A stretch of 64,000 nt of DNA from Owenia fusiformis (lineage: Eukaryota > Annelida > Polychaeta > Sabellida > Oweniidae). The stretch covers positions 6,686,989-6,750,988 of the forward strand of contig CAIIXF020000006.1 of NCBI GenBank assembly GCA_903813345.2. The letters are read 5' to 3'. Of the stretch, positions 114 through 50,547 are shown one piece after another (position 1 is the first letter of the stretch; each line of letters opens with the position of its first letter). The translations under genes were made by a program, and so were the position numbers. The notes under the pieces are model-generated. The model did no database searches, was not told the origin of the DNA, and worked only from the letters and a program-made list of their open reading frames with translations.

Positions 114-3100
114 TCACAGACCACTAGGTACATGTGAAATTGTTGTGTTGGTCAGTATATTTGGTGGAGGAGGAGCTAATGGTGTTGTTTGCGTTAAATA
201 GTGAAACAAATGAAACTTCGATGAGGACATTTTCTGCTGGTCAGCTGAAGAGAAATCATGCGAAGACTGAGTTTTAGATGAAGAAAGTGTTGGTTTTGAA
301 GTGGAATGTGTTGGTTGATTTGAATTAAGAATTGGTGCTGGAGGAATGATTGTTGCTTTGGATGTTTGCCATAAATAAGGGAAAATAAACATTGTGGTTA
401 ATCGATCTGAAGAGGACTGTATTGTAGGTGATGGTGATGTAAAAGTAGAAGAATGTGTTGAAGATTGAGTTGATGAAAAGGTAGAAGTATGTGCTGAAGA
501 TTGAATTGATGAAATAGTGGAAGTTTGTGTTGAAGAAAGAGTTGATGAAATAGTGGAAGTATGTGTCAAAGATGGACTTGATATAGTGGAAGTATGTCTT
601 GAAGATAGAGTTGATGTAAAAGTGGAAGTATGTGTTAAAGATGGAGTTGATATAGTGGAAGTATGTATTGAAGATAGGGTTGATGTAATAGTGGAAGAAT
701 GTGTTAAAGATGGAGTTGATGTGATAATGGAAGCATGTGTTAAAGATGAAGTTGATGTAATAGTGGAAGCATGAATTAAAGAAGGAGTTGATGAAATAGT
801 GGAAGTATGTGTTGAAGATAGAGTTGATATAGAGGAATTATGTTTTAAAGATGGAGTTGATATAGTGGAAGTATGTGTTGAAGATAGAGTTGATGTAATA
901 GTGGAAGTATGTGTTAAAGATGGAGTTGATGTAATAATGGAAGCATGTGTTAAAGATTTGATTGATGTAATTGTGGAAGCATGAATTAAAGAAGGAGTTG
1001 ATGAAATAGTGGAAGTATGTGTTGAAGATAGAGTTGATATAGAGGAAGTATGTTTTAAAGATGGAGTTGATAAAGTGGAAGTATGTGTTGAAGATAGAGT
1101 TGATGTAATAGTGGAAGTATGTGTTAAAGATGGGATTGATGAAATAGTGGAAATATGTGTTAAAGATGGAGTTGATGAACTAGTAGAAGTATGTGTTAAA
1201 GATGGACTTGATATAGTGGAAGTATGTGTTGAAGATAGAGTTGATGAACGAGTAGAAGTATGTGTTAAAGATGGACTTGATATGGTGGGAGTATGTGTTG
1301 AAGATAGAGTTGATATAGAGGAAGTATGTGTTAAAGATGGAGTTGATGTAATAGTGGAAGCATGTGTTAAAGATGGCCATGGATTTGATGTTATAGTGGA
1401 AGTATGTGTTAAAGATGGAGTGGATGTAATAGTGGAAGAATATGTTGAAGATGGAGTTGATGTAATAGTGGAAGCATGTGTTAAAGATGGCCATGGATTT
1501 GATGTTATAGTGGAAGTATGTGTTAAAGATGGAGTGGATGTAATAGTGGAAGAATATGTTGAAGATGGAGTTGATGTTATAATGGAAGTATGAGTTAAAA
1601 AAGGAGTTGATGTTGTAGTGGAAGTATGTGTTATAGATGGAGTTGATGTTATAGTGGAAGTATGTTTTAAAGATGGAGTGGATGTAATAGTGGACAAATA
1701 TGTTGAAGATGGAGTGGATGTAATAGTGGAAGTATATGTTGAAGATGGAGTTGATGTTATAGTAGAGGTGTGTGCTGTTGCTGGAGTCTGTAATATATTA
1801 GACTTATTCATTGTATATTGCGTTGATGAAATAGTAGAAATATGTGTTGTAGAAAGAGTTGATGAAATAATTGAAGTATGTGTAACAGATAGAGTTGATG
1901 AAATAAAAGAAATGTGTGTTCTAGTTTGATTTGATGAAATTGTAGAAATGTTTGTTGTAGTTGGCGTTGATGAAATAAGGGAAGTATGTGTTGTAGCTGG
2001 AGTAGATGAAATAGTAGAAGTGTGAGTTGTCGCAGGATTTGATGAAATTGTAGAAATGTCTGTTGTAGTTGGCGTTGACGAAACAGGGGGAGTATGTATT
2101 GTAGATGGAATTGGTGAAAAAGTAGAAGTATGTGTAACTGGAGTTGACAATATAGTATAATTATTTGTTGTAGATTGTGTTGAAGAAATAGTAGAAGTGT
2201 GTGCTATAGTTGGCATTGAGACAATAGTAGAAATGTCTGTTGTAGTTGGCGTTGATGAAATGGTAGAACTATGTGTTGTAGCTGGAGTTGATGAAATAGT
2301 AGAAGTGTGAGTTGTCACAGGATTTGATGAAATTGTAGAAATGTCTGTTGTAGTTGGCGTTGATGAAATAAGGGAAGTATGTGTTGTAGCTGGAGTAGAT
2401 GAAATAGTAGAAGTGTGAGTTGTCACAGGATTTGATGAAATTGTAGAAATGTTTGTTGTAGTTGGCGTTGATGAAATAAGGGAAGTATGTGTTGTAGCTG
2501 GAGTAGATGAAATAGTAGAAGTGTGAGTTGTCACAGGATTTGATGAAATTGTAGAAATGTCTGTTGTAGTTGGCGTTGATGAAACAGTTGAACTATGTGT
2601 TGTAGCTGGAGTTGATGAAATTGTAGAAGTGTGAGTTGTCACAGGATTTGATGAAATTGTAGAAATGTTTGTTGTAGTTGGCGTTGATGAAATAAGGGAA
2701 GTATGTGTTGTAGCTGGAGTAGATGAAATAGTAGAAGTGTGAGTTGTCACAGGATTTGATGAAATTGTAGAAATGTTTGTTGTAGTTGGCGTTGATGAAA
2801 TAAGGGAAGTATGTGTTGTAGCTGGAGTTGATGAAATAGTAGAAATGTCCATTGTAGTTGGCGTTGATGAAATAGGGGAAGTATGTATTGTAGATGAATT
2901 TGGTGAAAGAGTAGAAGTGTGTGTTGTAGCTGGAGTTGATGACATAGAAGAAATGAGTGTTGCGGATGGATTTGATGAAGTTGTAGAAATGTCTGTTGTA
3001 AGTAGAGTTGATGAAATAGTGTTTGTTTTAGTTGGTGTTGGTGAAATAGTGGAAGTATGTGTTGGGGAATGAGTTGAAGACATCATGGAAGTGTTTGTTG

Positions 3101-6100
3101 TAGGTGGCCTTGATAAAATAGTGGACGTAAGGGTTGTAAAATGAGTTGATGAAGTAGAAGAATGATGTGCTGTAGATGGAGTTGGTGAAATAATCGAAGT
3201 TTGTGTTTTAGATTGTTTTTTTGAATTAATGGAAGTCTGTGTTGAAGATGGAGTGGATGAAAAAGTGGAAGTGTGTGTTGTAGCTAGAGTTGGTGAAATA
3301 GTTGAAATAATTGTTGAAGATGGCGTTGATGAAATTATGGACGTATATATTATAGATTGAGTCGATGAAATGGTGGAAGTATCTGTTGTAGATGGCGTTG
3401 ATGAAATAATGGACGTATATATTGTAGATGGAGTCGATGAAATAATGGAAGTGTGTGTTTTAGAAGTTGTAACAGCGGAAGTTGTTGATGAAGATTGAGA
3501 GAAAGTATAAGTCGAAGTATGTTTTGTAGATGGATTTGATGAAAGAGAAGTTTGTGTTATGTATGACGTTGTTGAAATTGTGGAGGTTTGCGTTGAAGAT
3601 GGTTCTGATGAAATTGTTGGAGTATGTGCTGTAAAAAGAGTTGATGTATTGGTGGAAGTATGATTAGAAGATGAAGTTGATGAAATTGAGGATGTTTGTG
3701 CTGTAAGCGGTGTTGATTTTGTAGATGATGTTGATGAAATCATCGAAGTATGTTTTGTAGATTGAGTTGATGAAATAGTGGAAGTATTTGTTGTAGCTGG
3801 CGTTGACAAGTGAATAGAAGTATATGTTTCAGATGTTGTAGATGAAACAGTGGATGTATGTGATTTAGATGCCGGAGATGAAACAGTGGATGTATGTGAT
3901 TTAGATGCCGAAAGTGAAATAATAGAACCAGTTGCTGTAAATGGAGTTGATGAAATAATGGAAGTTCGGGTTAAAGATGGCGTGGATGAAAAAGTGAACG
4001 TTTGTGTTCTAGATGGTGATGAAATAGTGGAAGTAAGTGTTGTGGAAGGAGTTGGTGAAATAGTGGAAGTAAGGGTTGTAGGTGGTGTTGATGAAGTAGT
4101 TGAAGTATGAGTTGAAGATGATGTTGATGAAACAATGGAAGTAAGTGTTGTGGAAGGAATTGGTAAAATAATGGAAGATTGTGTTGTAGGTGGTGTTGAT
4201 GAAGTAGATGAAGTATGTGTTAAGGATGGTGTTGATGAAACAGTGGAAGTAAGTCTTGAAGAAGGAGTTGGTGAAATAATGGAAGATTGTGTTGTAGGTG
4301 GTGTTGATGAAGTAGCTGAAGTATGTGTTGAAGATGATGTTGATGAAACAATGGAAGTAAGTGTTGTGGAAGGAATTGGTAAAATAGTGGAAGATTGTGT
4401 TGTAGGTGGTGTTGATGAAGTAGTTGAAGTATGTGTTAAAGATGGTGTTGATGAAACAGTGGAAGTAAGTCTTGAAGAAGGAGTTGGTGAAATAGTGGAA
4501 GATTGTGTTGTAGGTGGTGTTGATGAAGTAGTTGAAGTAAGTTTAGTTGAAGGAGTTGGTGAAAAAGTGGAAGATTGTGTTGAAGATGGTGTTGATGAAG
4601 TAGTTGAAGTAAGTTTTGTTGAAGGAGTTGGTGAAAAAGTGGAAGATTGTGTTGTAGGTGGTGTTGATGAAGTAGCTGAAGTAAGTTTTGTTGAAGGAGT
4701 TGGTGAAAAAGTGGAAGATTGTGTTGTAGGTGGTGTTGATGAAGTAGTTGAAGTAAGTTTTGTAGAAAGAGTTGGTGAAATAGTGGAAGATTGTGTTGTA
4801 GGTGGTGTTGATGAAGTAGCTGAAGTAAGTTTTGTTGAAGGAGTTGGTGAAAAAGTGGAAGATTGTGTTGTAGGTGGTGTTGATGAAGTAGTGGAAGTAA
4901 GTGTTGTAGAAGGAGTTGGTGAAATAGTGGAAGATTGTGTTGTAGGTGGTGTTGATGAAGTAGTTGAAGTATGTGTTGAAGATGATGTTGATGAAACAAT
5001 GGAAGTAAGTGTTGTGGAAGGAATTGGTAAAATAGTGGGAGATTGTGTTGTAGGTGGTGTTGATGAAGTAGTTGAAGTAAGTTTTGTTGAAGGAGTTGGT
5101 GAAAAAGTGGAAGATTGTGTTGTAGGTGGTGTTGATGAAGTAGTTGAAGTAAGTGTTGAAGATGCTGTTGATGAAATCGTAGAAGTATGCGTTGTAAAAA
5201 GTGTTGATGTATTAGTGGAAGTCTGCACTGTAGATGGAGTTGTTGGAATTGAGGATGCTTGTGTTGTATATGGCGTTGACGAAGATGTTGTAGATGATGC
5301 TGATGAAATCATCGAAGAATATCGTTTTGAAGATGGCGTTGGTGAAATAGTGGAAGTACGTATTATAGATTGTGTTTGTGATGTAGAGGGAGTTGATGAA
5401 ATATTAGAAACATGTTTTGCGAATGCAGTTGATAAAATAATTGAAGTATTTGTCGTAGATGACGTTGATGAAAGAATGGAAGTATATAGTTTAGATGTCG
5501 TAGGTGAAACAGTGGATATATGTGATTTAGATGTCGGAGATGAAATAATGGAAGAAATTGTTATAGATGGCGTTGGTGAAATAGTGGACGTGGATGTTGT
5601 AGTTGATGTTGATGCAATCGCGAAAGATTGTACTGTAGATGGCATTGATAAAACAGAAGAAGTAAGTGTTGTTGATGGCATTGGTGAAATTGAAGGGCTC
5701 TGCGTAATTGACTGAGTTGATGGAACAGTTGAAAAATATGTTGTAGGTGAAATACTTGGAACATATTCTATATATGGAGTTATTGAAATAGTTGATGTGG
5801 TGGTTGGATTTATATTGAGTTTAGATTTATTTTCAAATGTAGTTGAGAGGGGCAGAACTTTGGTTGAAATGGTAGTTCGAAACTTAGAAGTTGCATGAGA
5901 AGAATGGAAGGAATGAACTATCGTAGAAGTATGAGGCTCTCTTGAACTTTCAAGTTCAAACTTATTGAATGAATTAATGATATTAAAATGCTTTGTTTGA
6001 CTTTTTCCTGATAACTGACTGTCATTTGAAAATGTAAATGTTATCAGTGATTTTTCTTCCTCGGGAATGAATGATGAAAGACCTCCTGAAATATGTAAAC

Positions 6101-9100
6101 CTAGAGTTATAGTGGTAGTCCTATATGAAGGATTTGGAGAAGACATGGTTAATTTCATACTTCTGATGTTCTGTTGTCGATGTTGAATAAGTAAAATACA
6201 TGGATTATCAATTGATATATTGTAAGACAAATGTGGATGAGCAATTGAAAATTGTCCGATGAATACGACCATTGAGAGAATTTTGAGTGTTTTATGGTAC
6301 ACAATATGCACATGCTCGTCATGCTGTATAATAATGGCAGCTGGATCATTAAAATGGTCATCTAAATGCCCAATGGTAATATTTGGATATACAATGTAGG
6401 CATACGGCTCAGCTCCATGCTTAATCCACATTGTTGTGACATTTAGCAACTTGCTATTTGATGATTTTTCAGTGGATTCAATACTTGTATTTGCACCCAT
6501 AGGGAACACGTACCCTATGTTGGCATGGTGAATCCACCTTGTCTGGACGAGCTCCGATGTTGTGTTCCAATCTACATACTGATGTAACGATTTTGCAGTT
6601 GAATAGCCAATGGGTCCATATCGTACTATTTGATTCAGCGTAGTGATTATATTTGACGTGTCGAATCTTTCACCAGACCGCATGGAAATATCGCTACCCA
6701 TACATACAATTTCGTTGTCAAAGAAAAACCATGTTTTCTTCATGGTAAATTTGACAGTTGGACGATCGTAGACCATAGCGGCAGCACCGTACATTCCATC
6801 TGATGCACTCCCAACGAAATCAGCATTGCTGATATGATGGAGAAAGTTTGGAGTTCCGACTCTCTCCATACCTTCTTGAGGTACATTTCCACTGTACAGA
6901 ACTGTCGTACCTGAATTCACATAATCATTAATATATGCATGATTGCAATACATTGTTTTAAGCTCCTTTGGTCACGTTATGTGTAAATAGTACTCTATGG
7001 ATAAACCTAATTTTCTTTCAAGGGCTTGCAAGGTGGCGCTGTCAGCACTAGGCATATACCACACAAACACAATAAATTATTTGATATTGCATCGCTCCTG
7101 GCTTACCTGGAATTTTTTCCCAATCATAATATTGAAACACCTCGTTGTATCGCTTTCCAAACTCGTTGTCGTTCTGTAGCACTGATACGAAACCATCCCC
7201 AGTGTAATATCTGTAACATATATATTTGTCATGGGGTCATGGAAATTCTCAAGCTTGCTTGACTTGGCGTTTGCCTTTCCTTTTGTTCTTCAACAATTCT
7301 ATGTTTCTCTTAGTCCACATTTTATTATCTCGGAGCATGTACATTATCTTTGCACATAATTCTCTCAATATCAAATGGAATTTTCAAAATTTGCTCGCTT
7401 TCTGTTCTTTATAATGGACCGATGAAACAAACTGATAAAACGATGTAGGACATGCATGAATGATTGAATATACTATTTTAGTAGATCATTTAAACAAAGT
7501 GACGCCATTCGTCCATAAACTGAAATCTTAAAAACGTAAAAGAACGAAGCAGTAACCGTGGCACAGTACAATATAGAATGCTCTTCAACAGCCTGCATTA
7601 AAACCTGTTTAACCCGAACGCCATTTGCACGGACCAACATTGGATAGTATTGAGCATGACGACGTACCCATTTGGATTATTAGTCCTGCGCCCAATCCAA
7701 GTTTCTGGTCTAACTGTTCTGGACGAAAACATTCGGACACTTGCCATGTAGCCTATTCTATGGTGGACTATCATATCCGAGGCAAATAACGCCCTATTCC
7801 CAACGAGGGCAGTTTTCTCGTTAGGTCCATGGTTTAGAAACCTTGAAATCGCATTATCTAGTTCCTTCGTACGATACCCCAACTGCAATAGTGCGCTGGC
7901 GACCTATGATATGAAAAATATTGTTTGAAAAGCATATATTATACATACAGTGCATTTTATATACATTACTTCCTGGCTGTTATACCAGAAATCGTTCATT
8001 TTATTTCGTTTGTTAATGATTCATTTGCAATGAAGATGGGGTGAAAATACCCTGCTCAAGTACTGAACGTAGAGATGACACGCTAAATGAAGTAAAGATT
8101 CAGGCTAGGCTAATACACGTGGGCTTTGCCGAAGCTTTTGTTGGAAAAATCTAAAATAGTTTTCGGAAACTTTGGTTAAGCACTTTATAGGTACGCTGGT
8201 TACAGATACCAATGATGAAATGATGAAATGTTCCAATGTATATGAATGGATATTTGAATTAAGGCTTATCTGGTATGTTCATGTTAACGTAATGGTATGT
8301 TATACAGTTTAAAACATACTTTGTAAATCGAATTGTATGCTGCCCAAAATGTCACTTTCTGATTGTCATCAATATTCCGCCCAACTGAGGTCGGCTCAAA
8401 GGTCCTGCCGCGGCACAAGTACTGATGACATTCCAAAAACATGTTGAAGAACTCAGACAATACAATCTCGCCAACCTGTAAAACAATATAAATGATTTCT
8501 AAATGTTGCACTCGATGTGCTGGTAATATCGGTATTGAGCATTCTCCCTCTCTGGGATGGGGAGGGAAATCCCATGTACAAGGGTTTATGCAACCAGTGC
8601 TTGAAATATCAGAGATGATAAAAGGTAATAATATGGATCTAAATGAAACGTTTTGGTAATTTACTCTTCTGCTTCTAGTATAGTAACATAGCGATGCCAC
8701 GGGAAGTATGGGTCATAAAGTTATGTTTCCATGACAATAAAACAATGATGAGGAAGCGATAACGGGGCTCGATGTTACCACAAACTCTAATAATTGATAG
8801 GCGGTGGCGCGCAAGCAGAAGTAACAAATGACATCATTTAAAAAGAGGGACCGGACAAATCTTTTGTCGGTTGTTTTCTTATTTGTTAAAACTCAGAGTC
8901 AATGTTTCTCCTGTCAGCTTTCTGCCAATTAAACTGTTAATAAATCAACGTCCCTGGGTCACAGCATCATAAATGCTAATTAAAGCGTTCACAGATAGCC
9001 TATATAATATATTGAGAAATGGGTGAGATGTACTCTCTTCCATAATTTGATCACCCTATCTGCCCCTTGAACTTATTTTGAAACATTTGTTATTCAAATT

Positions 9101-11004
9101 CGTATCTACGTAACATGAGATGACTCAAAGGGCTGGTAGTTAATTCTTTCTTTATAACGTTATTCAAACTTATAAAGCATAGAAATATTGGTAAACTTGG
9201 AACCTCAATCACGTGAGAGAATGTGACGCTGTCACTTTTTGAGCATACCTGAAATGTCGTGTTTTGGAAAAGGATGATTATTTGGGCAAATCTCTTGAGA
9301 TATTCCCCGCCATATCCACCATTGTATATCATCAGGCGTAAATGTGAGTTATAATATGGCGCCTCCCATAATCCAACATGCATGTTGTGAACATGAATAC
9401 AGTAGTCCGCGCCTACGCCCTCACCTACGTAGAAATGACACTAAAAAGAATGAAATCATCAAAGGAGAATGCTTTGGTATGATTGCGTCTTATTTGAACA
9501 TGGTTCGATATGTGATATACATGTATCTTGAAAACTGAGCTCGTGAACTTATCAGAATATGGCATAAAACTTAGAGGGTTGGATTGCATGCGATTACATG
9601 TAATTAAACCCCACATAGGTAGCAACACAATAGAATGATGTGTATTTTATTTTGAGGAATATACAATTGCAACAAAAAAGAGTGCATTCTTTGAATTTGT
9701 TTTTAAAGAATTGATACTTCACAAACTATCAAAAAACCAATGTGGCACAACAAATAGTTGACTGTCACACGCTGTGCACTAAAGCTGACCTAATTACACC
9801 CTATTCACTCAATAATAGCTGAATAATAAACACAAAGAGAATAATTTTTTAACTGTACCCGGCCTGTTACATGCAGTCTACTGAAGCTGGACTAATTACA
9901 CCCACTCACTTGTCAATGCACTTACTTCATAGTCAATAGAAAGGAAATCAATTTTTCCTAAAAATGAATCGTGGGCCGTTTACCTTTCATAAGAGTCAGT
10001 GTAGGGTTTAAGTGAGATAAAACATTCGCACTTGGTCTTAGGAGAACTAGAGAATAACGTATCATTCCTTAATTACCCAGTACTCAAACTTTATCCATAA
10101 CATAATATTTGACTTTATAACAAAAATTGATTGTATTGATAGTCTAAAAAACTTGATATCGATAGCATGTGGACAGTTTTAATTGTGATGACAAAAGTAC
10201 TAACATTAAAATGCTGACAATAATTGTGATGCATTCAGTGATAATGCATACACTTATACAATGGATGCCATGCATGATAATTAAATCATATAATAATATC
10301 AAACCTTGATATGAGCTCTTGTTTACGATTTCCTCTCCCAGGAGCTCCATCACCTCAGTTTTTCTCTCGATGAACTTTTTCTCGTTTTGATGATACATCT
10401 CAAACAATCCCTGAAAAGCTCTGTTGGCCAAATTAGACGCCGACATTTTCCCGTCTTTGCGTGCGTAATCCCAAACTTTAACACGTGTCCAATACCTTTC
10501 AATCAAGTCATTGTACAACTTTTCTGGGATGAACTCTTTGGAGAGAAAGAGACCAGGCCACAGGGACCTTGGGGTCGCGATCTGTACTCCCCACCAGTTC
10601 CAGTCTTTGTTTTCAGGTGCATCATAAGCAAGATATTCCCACGACTTTATGATCCATCTCTTTGTGGTTGTGTTTTGCCAGAAATAGTTCAATGGGCGTC
10701 TTATGTTATAGGCCTGTAGAAGCCTCGCCAATCTCTCTCCGTGCGAACAGAACGGCGTCGACCCGGCGTGTTTATTGTCCCTGTATTTTATATCAGAAAA
10801 ACTACCATCCAAATTAACCGTTCTTAAATTAACAGACTGCATAGATTTCGAAATGGCATGTGTTTCACCAGCATAATCGCTAGGCATTGCCGATGCCCTG
10901 AATTTGGCACCAAGCACTGTTTGATGATAATTCTCAGCCACAGTACCAGCATTCATTATCATCACCAAAGTGAAAACAATTCTTAAACGGTCGTGGAATG
11001 TCAT
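114..11004 (-). CDS. Secreted PL8 polysaccharide lyase fused to a giant Ser/Thr mucin-like tail (six exons)
   Basis: Exons on the minus strand: 11004-10305, 9424-9249, 8475-8320, 7903-7668, 7210-7107, 6910-114. All have GT..AG borders and matching phases and give 2,722 residues. Residues 1-23 look like a signal peptide. The PL8 helical domain carries NWWGVQIATPR (about 136-146), the Asn of MSASN (N191), ADYCIHVHN (H246) and YNGGYG (Y271). It also has the GR motif at R324, MASVRMFSSRTVRPET (397-412) and DWEKIPGTTVLYSGN (452-466). Exon 6 continues the beta-domain (AAAMVYDRP, KTWFFFDNE, IGYVFPMGAN) to about residue 740. PL8 enzymes cleave hyaluronan, chondroitin or xanthan by beta-elimination; the substrate here cannot be told. 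The remainder is Ser/Thr/Pro repeat without cysteine, so probably densely O-glycosylated. No transmembrane segment follows. The fold is certain; activity is inferred. Confidence 0.9.
470..5760 (-). repeat. 36-bp coding minisatellite of the mucin tail
   Basis: The tail of the lyase gene is a tandem array with a 12-codon (36-bp) basic unit of the type TSTISSTPSTTH. Higher-order periods are visible. A 24-residue unit (TSTTSSTPPTTQ plus SSTFSPTPSTKL) occurs in the 4.2-5.2 kb part. A 36-residue (108-bp) unit occurs at about 2,240-2,870. A 114-bp direct duplication starts at 1,361 and again at 1,475. The array stays open over its whole length, so unit gain and loss has kept the frame. Confidence 0.92.
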
Positions 11005-13094
11005 CCCAACTTACCAGACTTTATGTACTTTTATTTAAATATAAAATCTTTACGATTTTCAATGCAGTTTTTATCGACATAACTAAATGTAAAAGTAACT
11101 TTTATAGTCAATTTTCTATATCTTTTCAACAGAATTTTAGCATACTACACATGAATCACTGATACTCAATACAACTAATGATTCGATGGGATTTTGACCT
11201 AAACAAACATTTTTCTGTTTGTGCTTGCTTGTATATCATATCGTCACGTACTTAGTGAATGCACTCAGTAAACGTTGGATATTTACTTCTCAATAGCAAG
11301 GCTAACGTTAAAAACAAAACATCTATAGAATGGTAATCGTATCGTGCTGTGACACACACGTCAAGCACCTTACTTTCTTCTTGGCTTTAATGATTATTTT
11401 TTCAATACTTTCATTATGTCCCCTGGGTGTCATAACCTAGAACACGAGGTAGACGAGGCTCTCTTTTAAATAATATCAAACTGTTGGAAACTGTATTCAA
11501 TGCGTCACGATGGGAGGTGCAGCTACTGGTGTGACACGTGAAAAGAGTAGAGAGTACAGTTGTACAATTCTCGTACTTTATTTAATAAAAGATAGAATGT
11601 AATATCGAAAAGTGTACACCTCCAAATGTCACAACGTTGTGTAAAGAAAAACTTTCTAATGTAAAGTGATTTTCTGTTTGAGGTACCTAGGCGCACTAGA
11701 GGTACAAGCATTTAAAGTGAAAATGAGAACTTTCTAAAAAGAACTCACTGACATCTTTATAAGTAATCAATTATATGAAATGGTTGTGATATTACACGCA
11801 GAACTCATTGGAAGTGTTGAGATACATATTAATATGCGACACATCCTACAACCCCTGAATACAATAACTTGCCATTTTGCCTTTTTCATAATGGTTTACT
11901 GTTATATATAATGTTTTCAGCGCTCAGTTTATACATATAATGGACATATAATGGACAACAGAAACGGGAATAACAGTTATTTAACACCATCAGTCTAGAA
12001 AATCTACGGTCGTCTCTCTGTCTCTGTACGGCGTATCCGTAGGCCGTAGAGTCGCCACAGGAATTAGACTCGAAGTTTTAAGGTAGAAGTAAACGTAACA
12101 AGCTTTAGACAAACCAAAGAAACGTTCCAAGATGACCGTACGTCAAAATACGCCGTACGTCTTCCGTAGCAAATGTGACTGCCAAAGTAGTTCGATGGCA
12201 GTATAATAGCTGGATAACCAAAGTTTGAAGTTTTTTTTTATTGCAAATCAAACTGGAATGCAAGTATGAGAATAACTATTGGCCGTAGAAATAAAAGACC
12301 GTACTCTCGCCGTTGCAAATGTGACCGAGGCGCAATGTTGCTATGCGCGATTTACGTCGATCAACTAGTTTGTTTCATCAGTTTAGCATTTTCAATACTA
12401 AATTTGTGTTTGAGCCATGCTGATAGCCAGATAAATTAAATGCAATTCTTGCGGTAGTTCAATGGAGTTCGAATCAATTGAGGAATACGAATGATAGAGT
12501 GCTGTATCATCGGCATACAGAAAGCAAAAGAAATTTAGATCATCTGGCAAATCGTTAATATAAATCAAAAACAATAACGGCCCAAGAATTGAACCCTGTA
12601 GGACACCTGCATTAATTTGACCAGGAAGTGAGATCTGAGATAGCATTCCATTCATTGTAACTTCAATTCTTATATTTGTCAGATATATGGTAATGAAGTC
12701 AAGTATTGACTGTGCAAGTCCATATCGTGATAATTTGTGAAAAAGTTAAGCCGTTGTCATCTAACCAACAAGACACATTGAGTTATCAATATATAATTAT
12801 CAATGTTGTTTTCGAGAATTAAAACTCGGTTAATGAGATCGATTACTGGACCAGTGACGTCAAGGTTCATTTGGATCTCTCCTTGTTTGACCCACCTCGT
12901 TAACTACTCGTGCGAGAATTTTGCTTTCATTCGAATAGTCAAAATATTGAGTGAAACACTGAATGATAGTCGCTCATATAAAACTTTAAAGGTTTTTTTT
13001 TCTATCTGAAGCTTTGCAGTATACGTAGCAAAATTGATATTAGAAAGCAAAGTTATGTATCTGAAATCAATCTTAACGTTTTTAGTTATAATAG
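11005..13094. other. Divergent intergenic region between lyase-mucin and MSP130-like genes
   Basis: About 2.1 kb separates the two divergent genes. Apart from a LINE reverse-transcriptase remnant at 12,370-12,757, I see no coding exon. The signal-peptide exon expected for the MSP130-like gene was not found. A segment at about 12,000-12,340 holds several CCGTA/TACGG words and 'gcaaatgtgac' copies that resemble the repeat at position 1. Both promoters should lie here, but no clear core element was recognised. Confidence 0.5.
12370..12757 (-). pseudogene. LINE reverse-transcriptase remnant (Jockey/CR1 group)
   Basis: The minus strand encodes the reverse-transcriptase core INAGVLQGSILGPLLFLIYI, then NDLP and FLYADDTALYHSYSS. 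These are motifs B and C (YADD) of Jockey/CR1-type LINEs. Upstream, 'RYGLAQSILDFI' continues the finger/palm region in a shifted frame. No endonuclease or 3' end is present. This is a short dead fragment in the intergenic space. Confidence 0.8.
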
Positions 13095-16000
13095 TACCGC
13101 TGGACACCAAAATTTACCTGAACCACATGGCATCGTTGTTTTTACCTTATGAGCACGGCCCTTTGAAGTTTTCATTAGAAAAAGAATCAGCAGAAAAAGG
13201 AGAGGTAGACAATGCTAGAGGCTTGTTTTATACAGTTGGTAAGTTATCCTTCCTTAAATTGAATAAGATACTAATGATTCAACATTAGAGGTCTTATATA
13301 TGGGACTTCTTATATAACTTTACATACTTTGTAAATTAAAAAAAGTATATGGTGCTTTCTCTGTATTATCATACCAAACTTTCAAGCATAACCTATATGT
13401 AAACTTTGAGCAAATTGTGAAAACGAGTTTACTTAATAGAAAGAGTTGAATAGAGAGACTCACAAAATCATTACTTTTTACATCCGTTAGAAATGAGGTT
13501 TAAAAAGATTTCAGTATTTTTCTATTTTTTCACTTCATTCCAGGTGGTGATTTTATTCACGTTGTTGACATAAGAGATCCAAGATCCCCCCAGATATTGT
13601 TTTACATGAAAAAAGCGAACGCCGGTTTTACAGACGTAGGTGTTTGCGGGGATTACGTTGTAGCGACAAGCGACAATGCCACGCATCCTCTTAATGGCCG
13701 ACTTTATATCTTCTTAGCGTATGATTTTGACACTCAGAGTTTGGAATTGGTTAATACATTGACAGGTACATGTATACGGATAGAACTTACACAGTTTGTG
13801 GCAAGTGATCTACCAATTGACCTTTATTGACCCGAATGACTTTAACAAGGCTTTTTGTAATAACAAAGTACTTCAAAGAATTATACTGTCCCTCAGTTAA
13901 CTAAAATTATTTTAATTTTATGGTCTAAACCACATTTGGAATAATTTTACTAATTTTCAAATTTTGCTCGACGATAAAATTAGCAAATATTTTCAGTTGG
14001 ATCACTTCCCGACATGGTGGCGTTTACAAGTGATTGTAAGAAGGCTGTTATCGCCATCGAGGGAGAGAGGCGAGAGATAAACGGACAAGCCGTGGATCCT
14101 GAGGGAGAGATAGCAATCGTTGAATTCATCCCTGGACTCCCGCTGTCTTTTAAAATTACAAATTTGAATTTTAAAGCCTTCAATTCAATGTAAGTGAAGT
14201 TGTGCTAAATAAGTGTAAATCAAAGTTGTTTTAACAGAAAATTGCACACAGAATACAAAGATGCGACGAGATTTCAAAGCTATTTCGCAAATCCTCCAGC
14301 AAACATATTTCATGTATTAATTTTTCAATATTTTTTTAAAAACATTAGTGATTTAGCTAATATTTTCTAGAACGTGACCCAAATGACTCAAAATATTTAA
14401 ATGATGTGTTTAGGGCGGCAGCTTACATGAGGAGGGGTGTCCGAAAGATTTTCCCAAACAATACATTCTCAGAGGACTTGGAACCAGAGTATGTGACCAT
14501 TAGCGATGATGACAGGACTGCTTATGTTGTTCTTCAGGTTTGTACAGGAAATACGTCATCAATGCCGCTTGTGTTGTGTATGTATTTATAAATTATTTCC
14601 ACTTGACACATTTCAACTGAATGAAAGTGTCGCTCTGTGAACATTCTGATTAAAAAACCTATTCACTAAAATTCACTTTTTACAGGGTGTCCCAAAGTAT
14701 GGGACCCCCACCTCTAGGCAGACATACCCAATGCCTCCATAGTGTGTGTTATAGATCACTTTAAAGCTTTTCCAAAGTTACATTGATTTACATAGTGTTT
14801 GGCCAAAATTAAAGTTCAGTTCAGCATCCTGGAAACAGCTTTGAGCTGAACGTGAGCGAAAATATGTCTGTTGTCGTCAAAGAGAGGATGGATAGTGAGT
14901 TGGAAAAGATGACGATGAACGCAAATACTCCGAGGAAACTCTTTTAAAATACCTTTTGTGAGGATTGAAAAAGGCTACTCCTCTATTCTAAGTGTGTACC
15001 CATGGAAGAGGGAGACACATTGGCTATTAATTTGGTGTAAAACTGAACTTTAATTTTGGCCAAACACTACATTTTGAAATGCCTAACTTTTTCATATTTT
15101 TGAGTTGAACCATGATACTTGGCAAATCAATGTAACTCTGGATACGCTTTAAATGACAAATGACACATACTATGGAGACATCGGTATATGTCTGCTTGGA
15201 GGCATACTTCCGGGACACCCTGTACATAAAGGTTTGCCGCTAGATTTTAATTGGATATATACATAACTCTAATTCAAACAAATGAAATCCTATCTCGAGG
15301 GCTGATGTTAGAGTCATCCATCCTTCGGTACAAGTAAATATGACTTTGATGATTTAGTTGTATGAGTGTTTGTATTTACAAAAGGTCATTCTTTCTTCTA
15401 GAATGTAACATTTAATAGCGCATTATATGTAAAAAAGATCTTACACTGTATTAGATGTAAAAAGCTATGCTACGTTGCATTGACAGGAAAACAATGCAAT
15501 GGTAAAGGTTGATCTAACAAGTGACAAGATCATTGATATATTTCCACTTGGAACAAAGGATTGGTCTGCTCTTAAACTTGATCCGAGTGATCGAGATGGA
15601 GGTGAGAAGCCACTTAAACATTATAAACATAACAAACATATAGTAGTTGGGTGGAAGAGAAAACTGTTAGTATAAATGTGGAAAATTAAAGAAATAAAAA
15701 ATATAAATACAGAAATTGGAAACGTTTACGTGTGAGATCAAAGGTAAAACAGCTTTGTCTCATGGAATGAAATCGTCATTATTTCTTTTTAAATCTTAAC
15801 GTCCACGCAAAATCAAATTATTTTTTCTTATCAAAAGGTATCAATCTAGCATCTTATCCAATAAGAGGTATCTACAACCCAGATTCTATCAAATTTATGA
15901 ACATTAATGGCGAAGACTATATCATCACAGCCAACGAAGGAGATGAGAAAGAATATGAATTCTCAAATAGCGAGCCCTGGTCAGAATCGACAGAGGGTTC

Positions 16001-18043
16001 CAAATTAGGTAAGAGATGTAGTTGGAAAGCCGTTACGCCCTATCTGCTGGATATAAAATGGTAAGACTGATCATACAAAAGATTGTTTGCTGTGTGATAA
16101 TTAACGCCATGCATTTTAAGTTAGAAATATATAATAGAAATAATGCATTATGTTACAAACTGTAGTTTGTTACAGATGCCTAACTCCAACTGCCGAACGC
16201 CGAACACCTTACACAAAAATGTTGGAGACTATAACAATATATCAGTACATTGGTGACATAATGATGACCGTCGTGCTCTGAAACAACAAAGACTAGTCAT
16301 ATTATAATAAAAAAAAAGTTCCCATTTTGCTGAATTCAATGCCATAGAACGAGACAAAAAGAACATTTGTGAAGAGGAATAAAGTTACAAAACCAATGAA
16401 TCAAATCCCATTTTACAAATATGTTATTACATACTGAAACTTGACTCTTATGTATGTATTGCAGGTAGACTGCTCTCAAATGACGTGTCTGATGAGTTAA
16501 AATCTCTCCTAATGGACGAGACTAAACTTGGTAATTATAAGGATCATTTTATTAATGCTGAACACAAATTCACATAAACTACCCCATAGTCGTCTCAATT
16601 TTTATTTAACTTTATATCTATTTATAAGTACAGTACAGACTGATATATGGCAATAGATGGCATATGATTTAATAGGACAAAGAGATGGTTTTGTAATTCC
16701 GATTCTAAATAATTCCAATGTTTGTCATTTGCAATGATGTTAAACTCACATTGCACCACTAGACCTCGGTAGAGAATACAAGTCACAGTTTGAAAAACAC
16801 CTCTAAGAAAGGAACCTGGGAATATGTGAAACCAAATTGAATACCAATTTTTGATTTTAAATGAAAAAGGGGGAATTTTCGAACCTTTCAAAGTATGGGA
16901 AAATAGGGTTTATATCCATGTCTATTGATTTTGAGAGTTCTCTGATGATTCAAAACATGAACGGAATTTGTGTTCACCCTCAAACCACACTCCTTTTACA
17001 GGGAGGATGCCCTTCAGTACGACTGAACAAGATTTATCACAAGATGGCGGGAAACTTTTGGACTTCCTCACTTATGGAGGGCGTAGTTTCTCTCTCTTCC
17101 GAGCTTCAGATATGTCCCAAGCATACGATAGTGGAGATAAATTCGAACAGGAAATCAAAAGATCGTTTCCAGATTATTTTAATGCTGCGATGAAAATTGG
17201 AATACCACAGATTGCGGGTTAGTTTACTGTTTATATGACGTGGTGCCTTTTTGAAAATTTTGAAGATAGCACAAATGTCCACTCCCTTTCCATTGTTCTT
17301 CCTTTAAGGGACCAGAGCCAGAGGGTATAGCTGCAGGGAGGATTGGCAACAAAACAGTAATATTTGTTACAATGGAGAGACCGGGAATGACGGCCATATT
17401 CTCCATCGGGAGCAGGGGCAGACTTAAACCAAAGTTCGAGAGCATTCACAATGGGGCTGGCTGCAATCCAACCAAGAAGGTGGAAGAACTATACAGAGAC
17501 AGAGAAATTCAGTATGGTAGTGCAGAGACTGGAGTGTAAGTAAAATGTACAAAACATATAATGTTTTGCCCCCGGATGATCTATTTTTCAAGCGCTTGTA
17601 CTTATAGCCCAAAGTACACCAAGGAGGCAAAGTCCCAAGTGACATTGAGTCTAGTGTAGTCCAAATAAGTCCCAACAAAACCCTCAAATGTGACTTCGTT
17701 TATTTGCCTCTTGAGGTCCTACCCCGGGTCCTACTAAGATCACCACGTGCAAAGTCAATTTAATTGAGCCCCGACCCCAAATTAGACTCATACAATATAA
17801 TATCAAGAGAGTCGACCATTCTAGCTAATATTTATCTTTCCATCACGCGTGTCCATGAGAATCGAAAGGGTATTCGAAATACATGAAATATTATTCTTAA
17901 ATTTCAGATTCATTCCAAAAACTGACAGTCCAAATGGTAAAGACCTTTTCATAGTCGTGGGAACATTTACCAGCACGGTATCTATCTATGAAGTCAAAAA
18001 CAATAGGGGGAGAAAGAGGTATCGTCCGAGATACTGTCAATAA
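13095..18043 (+). CDS. msp130: MSP130-like (choice-of-anchor I) biomineralisation glycoprotein, 5' end missing
   Basis: Exons: about 13095-13238, 13544-13765, 13997-14189, 14414-14537, 15487-15601, 15838-16008, 16465-16530, 17002-17217, 17316-17535, 17908-18043. Junction phases agree, except the choice noted for exon nine. The joined protein of about 535 residues shows the family's blade signatures in order. These are GDFIHVVDIRDPRSP, VGSLPDMVAFTSD, DPEGEIAIVEF, EPEYVTISDDDRTAYVVLQ, ENNAMVKVDL, DRDGGINLASYPIRGIYNPD, YIITANEGDEKEY, GGRSFSLF, EPEGIAAGRIGN and GTFTSTVSIYEV. MSP130 is a secreted or GPI-linked glycoprotein of skeleton-forming cells in sea urchins and also occurs in molluscs. The first exon with the signal peptide was not found. 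The C-terminus (RGRKRYRPRYCQ) is basic, with no GPI-type hydrophobic tail. Confidence 0.85.
14683..15222. mobile_element. 540-bp inverted-repeat transposon with TA target site, in an MSP130-like intron
   Basis: It starts CAGGGTGTCCCAAAGTATG and ends with the complement CATACTTCCGGGACACCCTG, and is flanked by TA on each side (14681-82, 15223-24). The long terminal inverted repeats extend inward about 140-190 bp at roughly 80 percent identity. The interior has no transposase coding. TA duplication and hairpin form fit a non-autonomous Tc1/mariner-like MITE. It lies in the intron after the fourth recognised exon. Confidence 0.8.
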
Positions 18044-30996: not shown

Positions 30997-33498
30997 TCAA
31001 CATTTATTTGTATTACAAACCGAAGATTCAATTTCAAATTGATGACCATCTTTCATCACAAATTCTACAAGTGTCTCATTTTCGTTATTGGCATTATTGT
31101 ATGGACACTCACCAAGTCTATAAGGTGGTAACATAGAAATACACACTCTCGTTCGATATCGCATTCCGACACCACACTGTACTGAACAATTTGTATAAGG
31201 ACTGTATTCACTCCACACATTATCTTGCTCCATTGTGCTGTAAATCCAATCCAAAAATGGGCCCACATTTGTGTAAACTCCTGGGAACTTAGCAGCTCCG
31301 CACCGTACAGTGATCTGTCTGTTGTTTTCCGTAATTTCAGTCTCGCCAGAAGCTTTACTAACAATACCATACTGTGTCCATACTCCTTGTCTAAGACACA
31401 TCAACGGACCACCAGAATCACCAGGACATGAATCTGTTCTTTCCTTTGATGCACAAAACATAGTATCTGTAATGACCGTATCTGATCGTGATCCTAACCT
31501 TTTTGGGCAAAATTTCCTTACTTCTAAATTCGCCTCTTTAAGAACATCGCTGAATGTGTTTGCATGTATGCTTCCATGTGTATTGCCCCAACCTATCACC
31601 TGGCATTCTTCATTTTCCACTCTTAATGCTAGATCATCAACATTTTCAGGTAGTTTAACAGGCTGTGTATCATCGTTGAACTCAAGCGGCGGGTCAACTA
31701 CCAATATTGCTAAATCATCAACAGGCCCTCCTGTCGATCCGATGCTGTAGTTCGGATGTATAGTTATGTTTTCTGTGTGAATGGTTCTAAATTGTGTCCG
31801 CGATGGGTCAATATTAGATATGTTGTGTAAGGCAACAGAAAGATTAAATGTACAGTCGACTGGCCCTCCTCCTCTACATGGGCATAGCCCTTTGTTGAAT
31901 TCGCATATACAATGGGCCGCAGTCAGGATATGCTTAGGAGATATGATTGATCCTCCACAATGATGACGACCGTCGACGTCAGAGAGCTGAGCAATCCAAC
32001 GCCAATTGTATGGTAATGTTTCATTTCCACCAACAATGAAATGTCTCCTTGTTTCACTAAATTTCCTTTTGCCCATTTTTACTTCATTAGACTGGCAAGC
32101 ATCGACTTCTGGTATAAGATCAATGCACGGTGCATCAACCTCACCCCCATTGAATGTTTCATCCCTTCTCCCTAGCTTAACGCCACCAGATGGGCACCAT
32201 TCTCCCCTTTCTCCTACTTTTCCGTTGGTCTTAGCCCGTGAGATGCATTTGTGAAGACGGACTCGTTTCATCTGTATGCCAGAAACCTCGGATGTCGGGC
32301 ACGGGGAAAATTCCGTGGATTCTGCAAAATAAAATGCTGGTTTCACATAGATTGCATATATATTTAAGAAAAAATTAAATTTTTGGAGAGTACCTTTGGG
32401 TCACCTTATAGATATACATACTTATATGGTTAATGTGTAGTATTATAAATGAATATCTGACCTTTCTGTCCTGTTTGACACGGCCCTGTACAGTTTACGA
32501 CGTTTCCTTTTATACATTCACAATGTGTGCACCCGTCTGTTGTCCAACATGCTTTGCCTTTTACAGAAAACAGAAACAAGCATTTCAAGAAAATCTTATT
32601 GGGGTTCATAATATTTTACATCAAGAAATAATAAAGATTCATTCTATTTCGAAACAATATCCCGAGATTAAACTCAAATGGGTGTCTTTTTCATATCATT
32701 GTGAACTTTTATATGTCTAAAAAATGGAAGTAAATTGAATTAAATTGGAATAATGTAGTACCTTGCCTCAATTTCTTGTCTTTGCCATTGACGGAGCCAA
32801 CAGTGCATTTTCTACACCGTGGCATATCCGTACAACGAAAGCCACCTGTCGAGTTACAGAAGCATCTATTGCACATATCCTTGGGATTTAACCACTGCCC
32901 GTCCTCGTCAACATGCACCTAAAAGACAGCTTTCTGAAGAGATGCGAGATAAAAATACCCAAAACGCATCAAAACACTTTTGCGATAAAGTCAGAGACAT
33001 GTTTTATTATCATATTGCAACGATGTCCAAAATAATTTATTCCCAAAGGCCATTCACATCACATCATCCTACCCACTGTCGAAATCATTTCTAAAATTAA
33101 CACTCGACACTGTAAGTAATCATACCGATCTACCGTACCTTATTGTCTTGATCCTTACATACAGTTTCCTTACAGCACACGGACCACCAATATTTCGGAT
33201 GAACCACACATCGATACCCGTCCGGACATGTCCTTTTTGCTGGCCCGCGACAAGGGTATGGTATACCTTCTGGGTCGTTTAACGAATCACATTCTACTGC
33301 ATCCATTTTGCAACATTGCTGAGACTTGCATTTATAGGTATTTGGACACTGTATTCGTAAATCCTTAGAGCATGTTGCTGTGGGGTGTTTATCTTGACCG
33401 TTGTTGCACTTTTCCGAAATCGTTGTATGGATCACCATAAATACGAACGCCCATGTACATAGCCGTTTTGTGGAAGTGATAATTGAGCATCGATACAT
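30997..33498 (-). CDS. Secreted trypsin-like serine protease with N-terminal Cys-rich/VWC-like modules and C-terminal TSP1 repeat
   Basis: Exons: 33498-33139, 32918-32762, 32557-32462, 32321-30997. Phases 0, 1, 1 agree and give 645 residues. Exon 1 has a signal peptide (CTWAFVFMVIHTTISE) and two Cys-rich units (TYKCKSQQCC, GYRCVVHPKYWWSVCC). Exon 2 reads DGQWLNPKDMCNRCFC and exon 3 reads CWTTDGCTHCECIKGNVVNC, both VWC/antistasin-like. Exon 4 holds the S1 domain: HFIVGGNE activation site, TAAHC, DDLAIL and DSCPGDSGGP. All three catalytic residues are present, and the Asp before SCPGDSGG predicts cleavage after Arg/Lys. The C-terminus is a TSP1 repeat (WSEYSPYTNCSVQCGVGMRY). It is probably an extracellular zymogen cut at the VGG site. 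The substrate is unknown; defence or matrix processing are guesses. Confidence 0.88.
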
Positions 33499-35039
33499 TT
33501 TAACTTTCTATTACATGTATAACCCAGCTATCGTTTAATCATCGATATCATTAACTTTTAATGCATCATTGAATTGTGTCTTGTCGTTATTAAAATGTGG
33601 AAGTATTGTTTTATATATACTAGAACAGTAGTACCACGCTAGAATGATGTTCTGCGTTCATGCGCATATGTTTAACGGCTATATTTTGCAGGAATAATCA
33701 TCATTAATTATTTAATAAGATATCACAGGTGTTTTGACATCCACTATGAAGATAAAAACCTTTAAAACCTCAATATACATGATCATGATATAATTGTTAC
33801 TATTCATTTTTGATATGTATCTGTATTTAAAAAATGCTGTTATACCCATTGCGAAGGCTTCAGTTTTGATATTAAAAATGCTACAAAATTAACAGGACGA
33901 ATGAAATTATGTGAGCCATACAAAAACAATGAATATTGATGCATGAATGAAATTAGATAAATAAAGCAATGATACTTGTGTTTAATCGTTTAAATAAGTG
34001 TAAAATGCAAAAACAACAAAGTGACCCGGTTTCTCAGTCTCAAACATGCCACACAGAATTGCAAATGATGTTATGGATATCATAATTTTATAATCATCAT
34101 ATCCCATTACCGATATTCTTAAGACATACTTATCTGCCCATTGGTCTAACCCTATGTCATAGCATTCTGAGCATCAGATGTAATCAATATCTTAAACGAG
34201 AGACAAGTTCGCTGTTTTGTCCAATTAACAAAAATATGTTTTCTTTCAAAATATAGATGTCACCCTACTCGATCCAATTCTGTTCGCGACAAGTGAAGGA
34301 ATGCGCATCTAATGACTGCGTTTGGTAAGTTGGTCATTCACCACAGTCATTCACACAAACAAAATAAGGGCCTTTCAATAACGTGCAAAAATAAGTATTC
34401 AACCCTTAAATAACATTTGTATTTTACAATGAATATCCAAGGCAAGAATCCATACGTCAGTTCATCATCCGCGTTATAATTTTGGTGAGTTTGTCAATAC
34501 ATTACAACTAAACAAAATACCCTAAAATGTAAAAAACGTATAGATACTTTCTAGTACAATACAAGATGAGCATTCAGACAAAATGTCCATAAGAATGTTA
34601 AGTTACGGGTGGAACGAAAACATTTTTGATGGTGTAGCTATTTTTCAAAAATGTTTTTCTTTTCTGATCCTAGGTTCCACCAGTACCTTAAATGGTCAAC
34701 ATCCATCGACAAAACTGCCACCATGATAAATAAAGCACAATAACTTCCATTTGATATGTGTTTTTGCCTGTATTTTGATTGTGATGCTTTTCTGCCATGT
34801 TATTTTTGAAAAAAAATCACGACTAAAACTCTGAATTATGAGAGGCCACGGTTTACTGGAAACAAACTTATTATCGGAAGGAAGTCGGAAGGAAAAATAT
34901 TGCATTTAAAATATCAACGTTTTTTCCATTTAATGTTGCATCATGGTCCTTTTATATGTTTTTAGTTTTGATTGACGCCCAAAAGTGGTTTTGAATGTAA
35001 AATGCTCAACCCTATATAATATATTGAACTAGTTCACGA
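33499..35039. other. Intergenic region
   Basis: This is the upstream flank of the protease gene. Nothing coding was found. The only defined element is the 86-bp TTAA-flanked repeat at 34,602. The sequence is AT-rich with no extended open frame on either strand. Confidence 0.5.
34602..34687. mobile_element. 86-bp mini-MITE flanked by TTAA
   Basis: TTAA at 34598-34601 and 34688-34691 brackets a short element. Its left end GTTACGGGTGGAAC pairs with the complement of its right end, GGTACTGGTGGAAC. Inside, further short inverted pieces (AAAACATTTTTGA) complete a hairpin. TTAA duplication fits piggyBac- or Kolobok-type mobilisation. Confidence 0.6.
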
Positions 35040-48734: not shown

Positions 48735-50099
48735 TTAAAAATAGCCGAATAATTCGAAGTCATTTTTGTATATCTGCCTTAACGCATGCATTAGTTCTGT
48801 TGGGATTTGTTGGAGAGCTTTCTCCTTTGCGTATTTAGGTAAATTCAATAAATGTGTTTTATTGCTTGTAATCATATGTTTGAGAATCAAATCTGTTACC
48901 CCCGTTTCATTAAAATTCTCATTTGACAAAGAGACTAGTTCTTCAAGGGAATTTCCAGTTAGGGGTTCAATATAGCCGTGTTGGACAAAACTCTCCACAA
49001 TTCGTTTTGGCAATTCATGTTCGGGTAAACAGCCCTTATTCGCCATGTTTTTACGATCAAATGCATCTTTTACTTCATGTTTGATAAGAAATTCCCGTAT
49101 TTTAAGCGATTCCATCACCGGTAAATCTATCCGATCTCGTGCTCCTATTTTACACAAAATGTCGTGGAGATCATCTTGGAATGTTTCCAATTTACCGATG
49201 ATGTCATAGCGTATCATACACGGGTCGCAATGCTTGTGAATTGGTTCCCAGTGTTTGCTGATGTTGTTGACGCCCCTATGTTTTAGATCATCAATTACAA
49301 AATGAAGAAATTCCTCCAATGTCATATCATGTCCACATGTCAGGGAAGAATCTTTGCGAATTTTTCGTAAGAAATGAACTCCATATTTCCAATATTCGGG
49401 ATAGATGGAAACAAATTTGTCTTGGTATGCAGAAAACAGTCTACTAAAAGGATTTCTTGTAAACATTACTTTCACATAGTTTTTTAATACTTTTTGCCTT
49501 TCGAGATTATTAAATTCACTCAAGGTTTTGAAATGTTTGTTCCGTTTATTCATATGTGAACTTTCCACCAAAGGGTTTTTACTTTCCGTAAAATTATTTT
49601 CCAAAATTTTCATTACATTTTTCAAAAATGATGATCCAGCTTTTGGAACAATACAAAGTAAAAGTTGATAGTCATCATTCACAAGGACATTATTGTACGG
49701 GTTATTGGGTGTATTACTTGTATTAGGATCTGCATCATCATTTCGATCCAAACATTTTTCACGCAGAATATTTATCCTTGTCGCCATTTTATCATCCCGT
49801 GTTTTCAAACATGAATCGTGAATCCCTGTTCCCAATGGTGATTTTTGGAACCCGATGGGAGGCCAAGAAATATTTGCTTTTGAGAATTGTTGAAGTGACC
49901 TCTCGTGTTCCAGTTTTGAATCCATCATCTCTTGAATTGATGAGAAGCCTCTATTTCTGTTATTTTCCACGTTGTTGTTTTCTGCATTTTTGAGCTTAGG
50001 TCTCAAAATATACATTTTTAGATCCCAAAATATGTTTGTTACTAAAACTCCAAAGATACATAGGAAGTAGAAAGGCATGTAAAATTTTAGTATTTCCAT
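48735..50099 (-). CDS. Golgi carbohydrate sulfotransferase (CHST8-14/HNK-1 type, Sulfotransfer_2)
   Basis: A single-exon frame of 454 residues from the Met at 50,099. The frame stays open 84 bp further up to another Met at 50,183, but the downstream Met places a type II anchor at the N-terminus (MEILKFYMPFYFLCIFGVLV), as usual for Golgi sulfotransferases. The PAPS 5'-phosphosulfate loop is IVPKAGSSFLKNVM and the 3'-phosphate site is FTRNPFSRLFSAYQDKF. Also visible are the family segment KHWEPIHKHCDPCMIRYDII and GKLETF. Relatives transfer sulfate to GalNAc or GlcA in chondroitin/dermatan or HNK-1 glycans. Which acceptor applies here cannot be read. The length is close to that of family members and both cofactor motifs are intact. 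An LTR retrotransposon begins 220 bp upstream and could affect expression. Confidence 0.88.
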   Translation of the reverse strand: MEILKFYMPFYFLCIFGVLVTNIFWDLKMYILRPKLKNAENNNVENNRNRGFSSIQEMMDSKLEHERSLQQFSKANISWPPIGFQKSPLGTGIHDSCLKTRDDKMATRINILREKCLDRNDDADPNTSNTPNNPYNNVLVNDDYQLLLCIVPKAGSSFLKNVMKILENNFTESKNPLVESSHMNKRNKHFKTLSEFNNLERQKVLKNYVKVMFTRNPFSRLFSAYQDKFVSIYPEYWKYGVHFLRKIRKDSSLTCGHDMTLEEFLHFVIDDLKHRGVNNISKHWEPIHKHCDPCMIRYDIIGKLETFQDDLHDILCKIGARDRIDLPVMESLKIREFLIKHEVKDAFDRKNMANKGCLPEHELPKRIVESFVQHGYIEPLTGNSLEELVSLSNENFNETGVTDLILKHMITSNKTHLLNLPKYAKEKALQQIPTELMHALRQIYKNDFELFGYF

Positions 50100-50318
50100 A
50101 TTAGCTCTAACTGTAAATTCTTTATGAAAAATAATATAAAAGTAATATAGTAAATGGCTGTTGGTTGCAACACATTGCATCATAGTGATAAATTATGTAT
50201 AAGCGACTGTAAACTATGAATAATGAACCTGATAACGTTTTATGGACTTGTTATGGATGTTAGTATGGATTATCATATTAGCATCAAATATGATATATTA
50301 ACTATAAATGTTAGTATT

Positions 50319-50498: not shown

Positions 50499-50547
50499 TG
50501 ATGTCAGATGTGGTCTCACATGAATAAGTAGATCAGAGACAATAACA

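Follow-up and report, generated by a model that had tools for sequence, protein, structure and literature searches.

The window analysed here, a stretch of 64,000 nucleotides from the annelid Owenia fusiformis (contig CAIIXF020000006.1, positions 6,686,989 to 6,750,988 of the forward strand; coordinates below count from its first base), holds on its minus strand a gene that runs from an ATG at 11004 to a TGA at 114-116 and joins a polysaccharide lyase of family 8 (PL8) to a long Ser/Thr/Pro tail in one open frame. The gene comprises six exons, and its five introns are all GT-AG, with phases 1, 0, 0, 2 and 1 and a sole stop codon at the end. Exon 1 (11004-10305) encodes a hydrophobic, signal-peptide-like N-terminus (MTFHDRLRIVFTLVMIMNAGTVA) and the N-terminal part of the alpha toroid (NWWGVQIATPR) with Asn191; exon 2 (9424-9249) encodes His246, a 16-residue insertion and Tyr271 (in YNGGYG); exon 3 (8475-8320) continues the toroid with Arg325 and Asp329; exon 4 (7903-7668) contributes Glu411; and exon 5 (7210-7107) encodes part of the super-sandwich domain (YYTGDG ... 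DWEKIPG). Exon 6 (6910-114), 6,797 bases long, encodes the remainder of the super-sandwich and the C-terminal beta domain, which make up the latter half of the lyase, together with the entire tail. Its frame of 2,285 codons from stop to stop is the longest in the window's open reading frame lists, followed by frames of 1,279 (a retroelement), 965 and 805 codons. The corrected protein is 2,722 amino acids (aa) long.

The original prediction had likewise described six exons with consistent phases, a description that fits the introns but left the strand unstated and missed the boundary of exon 4. In the first exon reading, identical otherwise, this exon ran from 7903 to 7605. Scored with a generic donor matrix typed from general knowledge, the donor after 7605 (CAG/GTTTTA) reached -4.8, and an in-phase donor after 7668 (TGG/GTACGT) reached +2.5 and ranked first among the ten listed for 7903-7211. 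Ending the exon at 7668 drops 21 residues (YVVMLNTIQCWSVQMAFGLNR) just before YYTGDG, giving NNPNGYYTGDG; these residues are absent from the 12 bacterial rows listed, and the shorter exon restores the bacterial spacing. It also raised the Lyase_8 match, previously 156.1 bits split over two stretches, to 175.8 bits in a single stretch, and the match to chondroitinase AC of Flavobacterium (Pedobacter) heparinum (structure 1cb8) from 131.8 to 149.4 bits. The end at 7605 was thus rejected on donor strength, spacing and both scores, and 7668 is taken as the most likely end of exon 4. Upstream of the ATG, the minus strand carries a strong donor-like CTG/GTAAGT and a TATA-like stretch (11004-11050); the gene may have a very short 5' end or an additional exon upstream. 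At the other end, further exons past the window edge are possible, as the window holds only 113 bases beyond the stop.

Membership of the protein in PL8 is firm, as judged by its sequence. All three Pfam domains of the family match in order and above their cut-offs: the N-terminal alpha toroid (PF08124) with 44.3 bits (cut-off 24; 1.7e-11), the Lyase_8 super-sandwich (PF02278) with 175.8 bits (cut-off 27; 1.5e-51) and the C-terminal beta domain (PF02884) with 27.6 bits (cut-off 22; 3.9e-6), past which the predicted fold extends. The four PL8 signatures quoted in the original prediction, NWWGVQIATPR and YNGGYG among them, are all present. The NCBIfam model for chondroitinase AC (NF043001) scored 186.9 bits over aa 26-704 (5.5e-55), far below its equivalog cut-off of 1000, a score that places the protein as a relative and does not class it as the same enzyme; the model for the hyaluronate lyase HylB scored 51.8 bits over aa 374-728, far below its own equivalog cut-off. 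Among the 19 Protein Data Bank (PDB) sequences matched at 0.001, 1cb8 was the best (149.4 bits, 1.1e-42), with the next enzyme more than 80 bits lower; a fungal PL8 structure (7r2x) stood third in the list at 66 bits, followed by xanthan lyases at 62 bits. A tblastn search of the window at E 1 for a second PL8 copy returned only the gene itself.

The lyase-coding part of exon 6 (5937-6908) was further assessed by structure prediction. An AlphaFold2 model of 354 residues (5847-6908), built with 18 bacterial relatives, had a mean pLDDT of 74 and a pTM of 0.76, with order up to about residue 310 (approximately aa 768, near position 5980) and pLDDT below 50 from residue 313. Searched with Foldseek, the model gave 36 matches at E <= 0.001, all titled chondroitin, hyaluronate, xanthan or mannuronate lyases, which are presumably all PL8 (one title states this), and the top match was again 1cb8 (2.9e-17, TM-score 0.59 by model length).

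To place the active-site residues, we numbered chondroitinase AC by counting along the 1hm2 chain, which put the relevant positions at N175, H225, Y234, R288, R292, E371 and E376; their equivalents here are N191, H246, Y271, R325, D329, E411 and N419, respectively. N191, H246, Y271 and R325 form what we take to be the catalytic set of the family. In an alignment with 23 bacterial rows, the core columns hold Asn in 20, His in 20, and Tyr, Arg and Glu in all 23. N374 of chondroitinase AC could not be placed, the animal protein having a three-residue insertion there. The published account of a chondroitinase AC, in the part available, names His225, Arg288 and Arg292 as residues that bind the substrate or act in catalysis, and its docking puts Asn175 and Tyr234 on CS-C and Glu376 among the residues hydrogen-bonded to CS-A (PMC8733870). 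The original prediction had missed both the loss of the second substrate-binding Arg and the insertion between His and Tyr. The latter lies in frame within exon 2 and is absent from all 23 bacterial rows, in which the stretch is 16 residues shorter (15 in three rows); it may distinguish an animal subfamily or point to an altered specificity. An intron within exon 2 was considered as its source and rejected, as no usable AG precedes YNGGYG and only 48 bases are available (sense strand, by eye). A separate observation concerns three Chitinophaga relatives (L008, L009 and L012), in which the catalytic His is replaced by Arg and the Asn by Asp; seemingly inactive PL8 paralogues therefore exist in bacteria.

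Downstream of the lyase, the tail (114-5930; aa 785-2722) comprises 1,938 residues, of which 569 are Ser, 578 Thr and 168 Pro (59% Ser+Thr, 8.7% Pro) and none is Cys; in 50-residue windows across aa 891-2640 the Ser+Thr share was 52-72%. Most of it (aa 1016-2614; 435-5222) is a 36-base coding tandem repeat of about 133 units of 12 residues, with the consensus PSTTHTSTISST and 17 in-frame jumps. The 820 substitutions from the repeat consensus include no stop codon, where random placement gives 17.3 +/- 3.7 (minimum 7 in 1,000 trials), so that the tail frame has been kept; this absence of stops is the strongest sign of translation of the tail. Over the tail, each of the other five frames is interrupted by between 31 and 332 stops. 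The composition is that of a mucin-like Pro/Thr/Ser domain, that is, a long Ser/Thr-rich run with Pro, tandem repeats and no Cys, and the features of gel-forming or membrane mucins were not found in the part of the protein that the window encodes, there being neither Cys-rich D domains nor a transmembrane helix. The tail had no Pfam match and no hydrophobic anchor, the best 19-residue hydropathy after aa 780 being 1.1. It is probably disordered and O-glycosylated. When we compared it with 25 bacterial PL8 frames, some of which are truncated where their loci end, 100-residue windows with 40% Ser+Thr or more formed an unbroken run of up to 1,834 windows here and of 0 in the bacteria, whose highest window reached 38% (L021).

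As the original prediction had it, lyase and uninterrupted tail share the last exon. The junction lies in nearly unique sequence: only 1 of 487 14-mers in 5701-6200 recurs in the window, against 44 of 787 in 5301-6100, a stretch that takes in the start of the repeats. This makes a false join at a repeat unlikely, and the fusion is well supported at the DNA level.

Taken together, these observations point to a secreted animal PL8 lyase nearest to chondroitinase AC, with a long, disordered and probably O-glycosylated Ser/Thr/Pro tail in the same protein, that would cut chondroitin-type chains, a reading to which we assign a probability of roughly 60%. The signal-peptide-like start agrees with the secretion proposed in the original prediction. 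In the Asn/Tyr/His beta-elimination mechanism of the PL8 family, Asn neutralises the uronate carboxylate, Tyr and His abstract the proton at C5, and the leaving oxygen is protonated by Tyr. We propose that the catalytic body (approximately aa 24-768), exported by way of its signal peptide, would act in this manner on chondroitin or chondroitin sulfate, possibly on another uronate polymer, while the glycosylated tail would form a long, stiff bottlebrush spacer that slows diffusion, shields the enzyme from proteases and keeps it in mucus, an egg coat or the extracellular matrix.

The original prediction had set the enzyme against hyaluronan breakdown, a framing with which the two NCBIfam scores disagree. 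The enzyme more probably acts on chondroitin or chondroitin sulfate, because the sequence is nearest to chondroitinase AC and because hyaluronan appears to be rare in invertebrates: in the sections available, PMC12383584 states that it is rarely detected in them, finding small amounts in mussels (in the foot, 0.12 ng/mg against 24.38 ng/mg of chondroitin sulfate), and PMC10295696 that hyaluronan synthase is found only in chordates. Even so, other substrates are possible, since the Pedobacter rhizosphaerae chondroitinase AC acts on hyaluronan too, according to the accessible text of PMC8733870, and polymannuronate is the sole substrate reported for the fungal enzyme (PMC7911691, from a partial text). 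The window also contains, some 38 kb from the lyase, a frame with a Sulfotransfer_2 domain (PF03567, 2.5e-51; 48738-50192, minus strand); both proteins could act on chondroitin, and their proximity is probably chance. The Sulfotransfer_2 kind includes chondroitin sulfotransferases.

Several observations weigh against this reading. At the active site, the R292 equivalent is D329 (Arg in 21 of 23 bacterial rows), the E376 equivalent is N419 (Glu in 22 of 23), and His246 and Tyr271 stand 25 residues apart, against 9-10 in bacteria; the alpha toroid is matched by PF08124 only in two pieces (the better at aa 64-160); and the exon 1 donor (AAG/GTTTGA) is weak, at -1.4. Within the repeat array, 134 of 400 codons with a single difference were synonymous, where 29-31% was expected, and the Ser/Thr/Pro share was 0.704, compared with 0.683 +/- 0.006 in permuted arrays. 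The amino acid sequence of the units thus looks to drift nearly freely, with the frame and the composition kept and not the exact tail.

The changes at the active site would also suit a PL8-fold protein that cuts poorly or not at all and serves as a glycan-binding mucin, the insertion and the substituted residues having turned the cleft into a binding site, and the long branch of the protein in our tree (2.98) fits this as well. With the Asn/His/Tyr/Arg/Glu core complete, we consider such a loss of activity unlikely; three bacterial rows are altered at the His column (L008, L009 and L012) and three at the Asn column, indicating that the fold can lose its catalytic residues, which has not happened here. 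A different objection concerns the substrate, as a digestive or defensive lyase might be directed at a non-animal uronate polymer (alginate-type mannuronan, glucuronan or bacterial exopolysaccharide), its tail holding it in gut mucus. The PL8 of the fungus Paradendryphiella salina, in the available part of its description, is active on polymannuronate and inactive on chondroitin or hyaluronan (PMC7911691), and its structure and the xanthan lyases rank high in the PDB list; chondroitinase AC, however, is far ahead of them at 149 bits, as is its NCBIfam model over that of hyaluronate lyase (187 against 52 bits), and we hold this possibility to be rather improbable. The toroid and super-sandwich fold is further shared by animal proteins of the dermatan sulfate epimerase or Glce type, and the accessible text of PMC8006597 describes DS-epi1 as structurally similar to PL8, PL12 and PL21. 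That the protein belongs with these epimerases is highly improbable given its sequence: at a Pfam threshold of 0.01 only the three Lyase_8 models match and no epimerase model does, and DS-epi1 is reported in the same text to be unable to find bacterial lyases by sequence alone, which the protein described here does.

A last alternative, compatible with the others, is that lyase and tail are mostly separate products, through an alternative 3' end, internal splicing that removes the tail, or a minisatellite that is read in some transcripts only. A sense-strand AATAAA lies at 5831, about 150 bases past the predicted end of the domain, and a short form ending there is conceivable; exon 6 also contains internal donors scoring +4.5 (at 6872) and +4.0 (at 6514). 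Both of these donors fall within the lyase domain and not after it, the best of the 15 donors listed for exon 6 that lies below 6000 scores -0.4 (at 122), and the frame is kept across some 133 units, leaving separate products a rather poor prospect as the main output of the gene.

A bolder form of the preferred reading, that of a secreted chondroitin-type lyase with a mucin-like tail, is one that we hold tentatively, at somewhat less than even odds: an active animal chondroitin lyase with its own mucin scaffold, self-immobilised, would remodel or clear glycosaminoglycans in mucus, egg coats or matrix, its inserted active-site loop providing a new specificity. Glycosaminoglycan turnover in animals is, in textbook accounts, the work of hydrolases (GH56 and lysosomal enzymes), and, if the proposal is true, animals of this lineage would own an eliminase otherwise credited to microbes. 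Its unsaturated products would absorb at 232 nm, which allows a direct test for the enzyme in tissue or mucus; the union of mucin and lyase in a single protein would offer a natural way to retain a glycan-cutting enzyme in a gel, and the gene would supply a secreted chondroitinase of eukaryotic origin.

In the human bile-salt-stimulated lipase CEL, which is a secreted enzyme, the last exon encodes a C-terminal tail of O-glycosylated Pro/Thr/Ser repeats; this lipase is a hydrolase unrelated to PL8, and its tail, at about 16 repeats of 11 residues, is some ten times shorter than that of the lyase. The baculovirus envelope protein ODV-E66 is a chondroitin lyase of family PL23; this viral protein, described as hyaluronate lyase-like in the text available, is not among the 19 PDB sequences. 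F. heparinum chondroitinase AC (1cb8, 1hm2) shares with the animal lyase the three domains and the equivalents of Asn, His, Tyr, Arg288 and Glu371, but only about a quarter of its residues (25% identity in the Foldseek alignment), and it differs in retaining R292 and E376 and in having neither the 16-residue insertion nor introns nor a 1,938-residue tail. Although the original prediction rightly named bacteria as the best-known source of PL8 enzymes, the family is also known in fungi: PsMan8A of P. salina (7r2x) is, in the partial text of PMC7911691, a eukaryotic member of the family whose gene has several introns and which carries a signal peptide, but unlike the animal protein it has 786 aa, is specific for polymannuronate and is described there with no mention of a comparable tail. 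The streptococcal and pneumococcal hyaluronate lyases (33 bits here) have the PL8 fold too, and for the pneumococcal enzyme a tether through the C-terminal region has been proposed (PMC4175358, available in part), but theirs is a sortase-mediated tether to peptidoglycan, with a hyaluronan-specific carbohydrate-binding module.

The original prediction knew of no described enzyme with this layout, and our literature search, with subscription papers and protein databases outside its scope, agrees in finding no description of an animal PL8 or of a PL8 with a mucin tail; public databases may well hold unstudied animal PL8 predictions. The main text of a survey of animal biomass enzymes (PMC6011409) contains neither PL8 nor polysaccharide lyase, nor any word in hyaluron- or chondroitin-. 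Of two papers on snails, the available portion of one lists PL1 and PL14 in a table and PL1 and PL4 in its text (PMC10295696), and that of the other gives 41 polysaccharide lyase entries and does not name PL8 (PMC13359775).

As regards origin, our tree comprised the lyase and 21 of the 25 bacterial loci. The lyase fell on the Bacteroidota side, apart from Bacillota (100/100), its own placement being only loosely fixed (80/79) and its neighbours unresolved; as the tree holds no animal or fungal sequences, it does not separate old descent from old transfer. No close relatives indicating a viral or phage source were found in viral contigs, and three phage records match the lyase distantly (22-24% identity). 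Scans of the window with Rfam (gathering scores) and for tRNAs returned nothing. The introns, the retroelements, the sulfotransferase frame and the other genes and domains of the window described below are those of an animal genome. Head to head with the lyase gene lies a multi-exon gene on the plus strand (approximately 13500-18040) with choice-of-anchor I pieces (PF22494), each singly below the Pfam cut-off. Further along, one minus-strand frame (31000-32400) encodes a trypsin domain with a thrombospondin type 1 repeat after it, a weak lustrin-type cysteine domain, below cut-off, occurs at 33133-33507, and the 1,279-codon retroelement frame (50524-54360, plus strand) is of the Gypsy type, encoding protease, reverse transcriptase, RNase H and integrase with no stop.

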